DNA from: Kiritimatiellia bacterium
Lineage (GTDB): Bacteria; Verrucomicrobiota; Kiritimatiellia; SLAD01
Assembly: GCA_007136425.1 (NCBI GenBank)
Contig: SLGY01000200.1
Coordinates: 1-35,861 of the forward strand
DNA length: 35,861 nt
Direction: 5' to 3'
In this document: one piece after another, positions 4,040 through 23,354 of the stretch
Layout: each line of letters starts with the position of its first letter
Numbering within the stretch: the stretch's first letter is position 1
Position numbers and translations under genes: made by a program
Notes under the pieces: model-generated
Told to the model about the DNA's origin: nothing
Databases searched by the model: none
The model's input: the letters and a program-made list of their open reading frames with translations, nothing else

Positions 4040-4065
4040 TGGGAGGGACACGCTCCTGCGTGTCC
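4040..4065 (+). repeat. TGGGAGGGAC hairpin family, copy A
   Basis: TGGGAGGGACACGCTCCTGCGTGTCC; stem GGACACG/CGTGTCC. Confidence 0.75.
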
Positions 4066-20436: not shown

Positions 20437-20488
20437 GGGACGGGCTTCCGCCTCCGCCCGGGCTGCGGCAGACAGGCTTGTCCCGTCC
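20437..20488. repeat. Hairpin-flanked cassette, copy 1
   Basis: Outer arms GGACGGG/CCCGTCC around CTTCCGCCTCCGCC..GGGCTGCGGCAGACAGG; core resembles 21940-21974. Confidence 0.55.
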
Positions 20489-20511
20489 GAAAAGGGGCTC
20501 GACGGCAAAGA

Positions 20512-20538
20512 GGACGACACGAAAGTCGTCCCTCCCAT
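20512..20538 (-). repeat. TGGGAGGGAC hairpin family, copy C (minus orientation)
   Basis: Minus strand ATGGGAGGGACGACTTTCGTGTCGTCC; stem GGACGAC/GTCGTCC. Confidence 0.75.
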
Positions 20539-22139: not shown

Positions 22140-23354
22140 TCACAGCGCGCGTTGCAGCACGTCGGCCAATTCCTCGTCCGTCAGTTTGACCGGGTTCCCT
22201 TTCATGCTGCTGGCATTGCGCGATTTCGCGATGATGTCCGGGAAATCATCGGACTGCACACCGTACGCGCCGAGCCCCCGCACGGAAAGCGTATCGCACA
22301 GCGCCTGCACCCAATCCATCCCGTCCTGCGCGACGGCATCCGGGCGACCAGTCAGAATGCGCGCAATCTCATCGTAGCGCGCCACGGACCGATTCCCGGA
22401 ATCGCGCTCGCTCAAGGCCTTGAGATTGGCCTCCATCACAAACGGCAAGAGCCGCGCGCACACCGCGCCGTGCGGCGCGGGATACATCCCGCCCAACGGC
22501 CCGGCCAACCCGTGCACCGCGCCCAACCGCGCATTGGCCAGCGCCAACCCGCTGCACAACGCCGCCAGACACAGATCCGCCCGAGCGCGGCGGAATGACA
22601 CACCCTCTTCATCTTTTTCATGGAGGGACGGGCTCCGTCCCGTCCGACCATGGTCGCGAGTGCACCCTTCCCATGCCGTCCGCAGATGGCGCGCACGACT
22701 TAACCCCTCGCGACATACCGCGTCGGTCAACGGACTCGAATTGTCGCTCACAAAGACTTCCATCAACTGCGTCAACGCGTCCAGACCGGACGCCGCGGTA
22801 ACGTCCGGAGGCAAGTCGTATGTGAGTTCCGGATCGACGAGCGCCACATGCGGCAACATCAATTCGTTCCGCATACTTACCTTCACCCGATGTTCCGGCG
22901 CGCCGACCACCGCATTGCGCGTCACTTCCGCGCCCGTCCCCGCTGTGGTGGGCACGGCAATATACGGCGCGGAACGATGCGCCAGCGGCCGGCCAGCCCC
23001 GATCACTTCAAGGTATTCCATCAACTCACCCTGGTTCGTCATCAGGGCCGAAACAACCTTGGCGGCGTCAATCACGCTGCCGCCGCCGATGCCTATGACC
23101 ATGTCGCACCCCGCCGCGCGCGCCGCGTGCAGCCCTTCTTCGATGACGTCAGTCGTCGGCTCGCCTTCCACGGAGTACGGCGTCGTGCGCACACCGTGTT
23201 GTTCCAGCAAGTCGACCAGAAACGCTGCGCGTTCGCGCGAGCGACCGGAAACAAGGAGTGCGTGTTTCCCGACACGCTCAGCCAACTCGGGTACGGTTTG
23301 CACCGTGCCTTCGCCGAAAATGATTTGCCCCGCTGTGGCGAATTGAAAATTCAT
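22140..23354 (-). CDS. Iron-containing alcohol dehydrogenase with an apparent in-frame insertion
   Basis: MVIGIGGGSVIDAAKVVSAL, PLAHRSAPYIAVPTTAGTGAEVTRNAV, ALVDPELTYDLPP, SGLDALTQLMEVFVS, LALANARLGAVHGLAGPLGGMYPAPHGAVCA. Confidence 0.93.
   Translation of the reverse strand: MNFQFATAGQIIFGEGTVQTVPELAERVGKHALLVSGRSRERAAFLVDLLEQHGVRTTPYSVEGEPTTDVIEEGLHAARAAGCDMVIGIGGGSVIDAAKVVSALMTNQGELMEYLEVIGAGRPLAHRSAPYIAVPTTAGTGAEVTRNAVVGAPEHRVKVSMRNELMLPHVALVDPELTYDLPPDVTAASGLDALTQLMEVFVSDNSSPLTDAVCREGLSRARHLRTAWEGCTRDHGRTGRSPSLHEKDEEGVSFRRARADLCLAALCSGLALANARLGAVHGLAGPLGGMYPAPHGAVCARLLPFVMEANLKALSERDSGNRSVARYDEIARILTGRPDAVAQDGMDWVQALCDTLSVRGLGAYGVQSDDFPDIIAKSRNASSMKGNPVKLTDEELADVLQRAL
22621..22645 (+). 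repeat. TGGGAGGGAC hairpin family, copy B (inside the ADH gene)
   Basis: TGGAGGGACGGGCTCCGTCCCGTCC; stem GGACGGG/CCCGTCC. Confidence 0.75.

Follow-up and report, generated by a model that had tools for sequence, protein, structure and literature searches.

A probable REPIN remnant carried in frame by an iron-containing alcohol dehydrogenase of Kiritimatiellae

Results

An alcohol dehydrogenase gene with an extended linker

The window (the whole stretch of 35,861 nucleotides that was analysed, from the Kiritimatiellae genome G000) carries a gene for an iron-containing alcohol dehydrogenase (Fe-ADH) whose reading frame runs through a palindromic hairpin. This gene, the parts of the hairpin and two further copies in the window are listed below, each with the evidence for it.

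22140..23354, minus strand: Fe-ADH gene with insertion, 404 aa (open reading frame, Pfam and PDB matches)
22590..22664, minus strand: variable linker, residues 231-255 (CTRDHGRTGRSPSLHEKDEEGVSFR), about 21 codons longer than in insertion-free homologues (alignment with 30 homologues, structural model)
22621..22645, plus strand: REP unit TGGAGGGACGGGCTCCGTCCCGTCC within the ADH gene, comprising the tag TGGAG (22621-22625), stem GGACGGG (22626-22632), loop CTCCGT (22633-22638) and stem CCCGTCC (22639-22645) (identical copies in its own genome and in G001, stem covariation, DNA fold)
22646..22655, no strand assigned: REPIN spacer remnant GACCATGGTC, the partner REP missing (exact matches to G001 doublet spacers)
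20471..20538, minus strand: degenerate intergenic REPIN, 74% identical to the REPIN in the G001 ADH gene, with its hairpin at 20512-20536
4041..4065, plus strand: degenerate single REP GGGAGGGACACGCTCCTGCGTGTCC, with three mismatches when compared to the family pattern and pairing bases in its inner stem (ACG/CGT)

Two Pfam domains, PF00465 (6.3e-46) and PF25137 (1.5e-28), lie one on each side of the insert, and sequence and fold matches in the PDB were to FucO and to methanol and 1,3-propanediol dehydrogenases (target TM about 0.9). Domains and fold together place the protein among the Fe-ADHs. Residue 196, in the motif LDALTQ, is a Gln that is near-invariant across the aligned relatives, at the position of a metal-ligand His in Fe-ADHs such as FucO; metal binding may be different in this subfamily.

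In the closest homologue without the insertion (G004, 383 aa, approximately 70% identity), 38 codons separate CREGL from the conserved AN; the window gene has 59, i.e. 21 extra codons, within the 20-25 extra residues that the initial annotation of this DNA had estimated. The linker after ..LRTAWE was short in all 30 aligned homologues from other genomes, which came mostly from the same class plus one spirochaete and one member of the Anaerolineaceae, and the extra sequence was restricted to G000 and the congener G001 among the 32 aligned ADHs. The alignments confirmed that a palindrome has been inserted in frame into this conserved ADH gene, and relatives with a loop of the same length made of unrelated DNA, named in the annotation as the evidence that would speak against an insertion, were looked for among them and not found.

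The frame stays open across TGGAGGGACGGGCTCCGTCCCGTCC, and this unit folds as DNA with z = -2.8. The adjoining GACCATGGTC is the conserved spacer of the REPIN and matches the G001 copies in L089 and L104 with 0 mismatches; two G001 copies also contain the window stretch GACCATGGTCGGACGGGAC unchanged. The extra residues had been attributed to the hairpin plus GACCATGGTC; both are indeed REPIN sequence, but they account for no more than approximately two thirds of the added DNA, and the remainder is non-repeat linker. In the AlphaFold model (mean pLDDT 93.7), built as the annotation had proposed, the insert forms a low-confidence loop between helices 224-234 and 254-274, with the blocks covering residues 231-250 at 60-73. 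Its position and low confidence suggest that this loop is exposed.

Two states of the insert in related species

The ADH gene of G001 (L019:3001-4281; 83% identity to the window ADH) has 44 extra codons relative to G004, with a complete 73-bp doublet of inverted hairpins at their core, compared to one hairpin plus spacer in the window copy. The upstream gene ends in DPNSIWE in both genomes, which supports orthology of the two loci; the third congener, G002, yielded no ADH orthologue. Draft assemblies are often broken or misjoined at repeats, and a repeat could have been joined to the gene by faulty assembly or binning. The site recurs, together with homologous spacer and flanks, in a separately deposited congener genome and the open reading frame is intact in both, which makes such an artefact extremely improbable.

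Of the net 132 nt inserted in G001, approximately 59 nt are non-repeat. Since 73 is 1 mod 3, the REPIN by itself would shift the ADH frame, and the non-repeat DNA needed to keep the G001 frame may stem either from an older, longer linker or from later adjustment. An alternative explanation is that a lineage-specific extended linker predated the REPIN and that the extra loop derives only in part from a mobile element. The non-repeat flanks of the REPIN (approximately 59 of 132 nt in G001, roughly one third in the window) are what such a history would leave, but no long REP-free linker was present among the homologues in the class sample, and we regard this origin as a possibility with the odds clearly against it.

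Purifying selection on both halves of the gene

Between G000 and G001, dN/dS was 0.10 before the insert and 0.095 after it, so both gene halves are under purifying selection; within the insert it was 0.31, on few sites. Although the annotation consists of open reading frames of draft metagenome assemblies, a decaying pseudogene in which a hairpin by chance added no stop is very unlikely: the open frame is common to two species, dN/dS is about 0.1 on both sides, the conserved residues are intact and the fold is confident. The gene probably yields an active protein, and the extra loop seems to be tolerated by the enzyme. Synonymous divergence in the same comparison differed across the insert (dS 1.41 before, 0.54 after; p = 3.7e-5), pointing to recombination or gene conversion close to the insert.

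A GGAG-tagged REP family in Kiritimatiellae

Within the window alone, the loose hairpin pattern of the initial annotation was found five times compared to 6.3 expected and was not above chance, so that genome-wide evidence was needed. A strict REP pattern (up to 3 mismatches) gave 18 matches in the window genome and 0 for the reversed control. With the inner stem left free and up to 1 mismatch, we counted 98 copies in G001, 56 in G009, 16 in G000 and 0 in six other members of the family; the REP was found in 90 of the 288 genomes of the class sample and was absent (0) from all controls listed. Both other copies that the initial annotation had named in the window (4040-4065 and 20512-20538) are real but degenerate, the second belonging to the doublet at 20471-20538.

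Inner stems were fully complementary in 110 of 112 REP copies compared to 43 expected from shuffles, in a search pattern that left the inner stem bases unconstrained. Copies often occurred as inverted pairs, outward doublets being mostly 73 bp and inward ones 69-70 bp, and the doublets folded with z of about -4. The length of outward doublets was 1 mod 3 in 11 of 12. A single REP is stop-free in all six frames, and outward doublets were open in 4.9 of six frames compared to 3.4 for shuffles. When the G001 ADH insert was used as a BLAST query against five genomes, dozens of dispersed copies were recovered with ends clustered at query positions ~40-112, and there were no matches in G002, G004 or G006. 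These ends coincide with those of the doublet, indicating that the mobile unit is the 73-bp doublet.

Overall, the family shows the dispersed palindrome copies, the stem-loop and the inverted doublets with spacer that define REPs and REPINs, and its paired hairpins match the published REPIN anatomy (PMC3116915). In place of the GT[AG]G foot tetranucleotide, nearly all copies carry GGAG, which we read as a variant tag because degenerate tags have been reported in some published families (PMC3733652). The element is of the REPIN type with a non-canonical tag. Elsewhere in the window genome, a Y1_Tnp gene (L052:900-2220) lies amid many copies of another hairpin (GCTCCCTTTCAGGGAGC type), which is probably a second REP-like family.

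RAYT-like genes bordered by the REPs in related genomes

In G001 (C46), G009 (C100) and G003 (C33), REPs lie immediately next to a RAYT-like gene and flank it, giving the linked HUH-Y1 transposase expected of a REP/REPIN system. All aligned proteins retain the HUH histidines and the tyrosine. Relatives without REPs also have RAYT-like genes, none of which has REPs nearby. The REP-flanked RAYT type was not found in the window genome, which is 89% complete; this fits the lower REP copy number there. Movement of the REPs by RAYT is most likely.

In-frame REPs in other conserved genes

The annotation had proposed a search of the genome for other coding sequences bearing the hairpin. Across the class, three further conserved genes have in-frame REPs, each checked against homologues: a Na/Ca exchanger, a pseudouridine synthase and RAYT itself. 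The exchanger of G000 and G001 carries an in-frame four-REP array in its central loop (L131:2294-3511 and L125:134-1264), and in the congener G002 the site is empty, with the flanking residues nearly adjacent. In G009, a REP doublet lies within an RluA-type pseudouridine synthase at a point where the relatives of this protein are continuous. RAYT genes of G001 and G015 carry in-frame REPs in the interval between HUH and tyrosine; in the model of the G001 protein the confidence of the REP-encoded stretch is very low, as expected of a disordered segment. The REP-bearing RAYT-like genes L085:1022-1747 and L202:1589-2494 belong to two families of the class. Most examined REP clusters lie outside recognisable conserved genes.

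Between the two species, the exchanger array differed at 3 of 48 synonymous sites compared to 68 of 247 in the remaining gene (p = 0.0008), which could be caused by gene conversion or by selection on the hairpin. The latter would suit the idea that the hairpins are retained for a role in mRNA or DNA (e.g. pausing or decay control) beyond mere tolerance. Gene conversion between copies would account for the exchanger equally well, however, and the ADH copy of the window species has lost half of the structure, so that we consider such a role unlikely for the ADH insert.

Discussion

The extra ADH segment is best explained, with a probability of about 0.88, as the remnant of a RAYT-copied, in-frame-tolerated 73-bp REPIN that inserted in the ancestor of G000 and G001. 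A doublet of two inverted GGAG-tagged REP hairpins would have entered the ADH gene of this common ancestor. Copying of such doublets most likely proceeds through folded single-stranded DNA and is carried out by RAYT (TnpA-REP), an HUH single-tyrosine transposase. G001 would then have kept the full doublet and the window lineage would have lost the left hairpin. Two features would have made the insertion tolerable: a REP unit is free of stop codons in all six frames, and the inter-helix linker in which it lies is not part of the conserved core.

Similar to known REP/REPIN-RAYT systems, the family has dispersed copies of a short palindrome with a tag, covarying stems, inverted doublets that include a spacer and measure approximately 70 bp, and an HUH-Y1 transposase flanked by hairpins. 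It differs in its tag (GGAG here, GTAG or GTGG there) and in its host, Kiritimatiellae. The initial annotation had drawn a parallel to Rickettsia palindromic elements, which is apt for the outcome: in both cases palindromic DNA lies in frame inside open reading frames of probably functional proteins (here ADH, the exchanger, RluA and RAYT). It does not extend to the type of element, since REP-type hairpins with a flanked RAYT are involved here.

The annotation's statement that no such case was known for this lineage is weakened by published work. In-frame GTAG/CGTC REPs and their dimers have been described inside conserved genes of many bacteria, including the verrucomicrobial PVC member Opitutus terrae (PMC3733652), and pseudouridine synthases are among the targets both there and here. 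In the present case the targets include ADH and the Na/Ca exchanger, and insert and empty states were compared between related genomes. Frame-preserving REPs have also been reported inside tnpA-REP genes of subclass 2.4 (PMC6006769), where the REPs occupy the interval from HUH to tyrosine motif that also holds them in G001 and G015. For Kiritimatiellae no earlier report was found: a literature search on GGAG-tagged RAYT systems and Kiritimatiellae palindromes found nothing relevant, and the RepRanger paper makes no mention of them. Within the literature searched, the new features are the GGAG tag, the occurrence in Kiritimatiellae, ADH and the exchanger as targets, and the comparison of congeners.

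The series of no insert, full doublet and half doublet captures a mobile hairpin turning into protein sequence in a gene that is still under selection. With copies in about one third of the class genomes sampled, the REP family provides many natural replicates for the question of which protein sites accept such insertions. A broader role, in which GGAG-tagged REPINs of Kiritimatiellae, being without stops in most frames, are a recurrent source of new protein loops captured in frame time and again by conserved genes, some arrays being then conserved at the level of DNA as functional hairpins, is doubtful on present evidence.

Additional candidate reading frames

Many long REP-spanning open reading frames of G001 appeared by eye to be antisense frames or to have their REPs upstream of the likely start, and a tRNA-synthetase-like (L112) and a RibD-like frame (L100) were set aside among these. 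Five others (L120, L123, L128, L106 and L222) had no Pfam support and were not counted, and an HlyD-like frame (L132) was counted as a C-terminal extension only. Candidate in-frame cases on the basis of Pfam are a peptidase U32 (L194), a GltD-like protein (L217) and an ABC ATPase-permease (L219). In the last of these (L219:347-2407), an ABC ATPase and an FtsX/MacB-like permease are joined across a REPIN in a single open reading frame, possibly a gene fusion at the REPIN.
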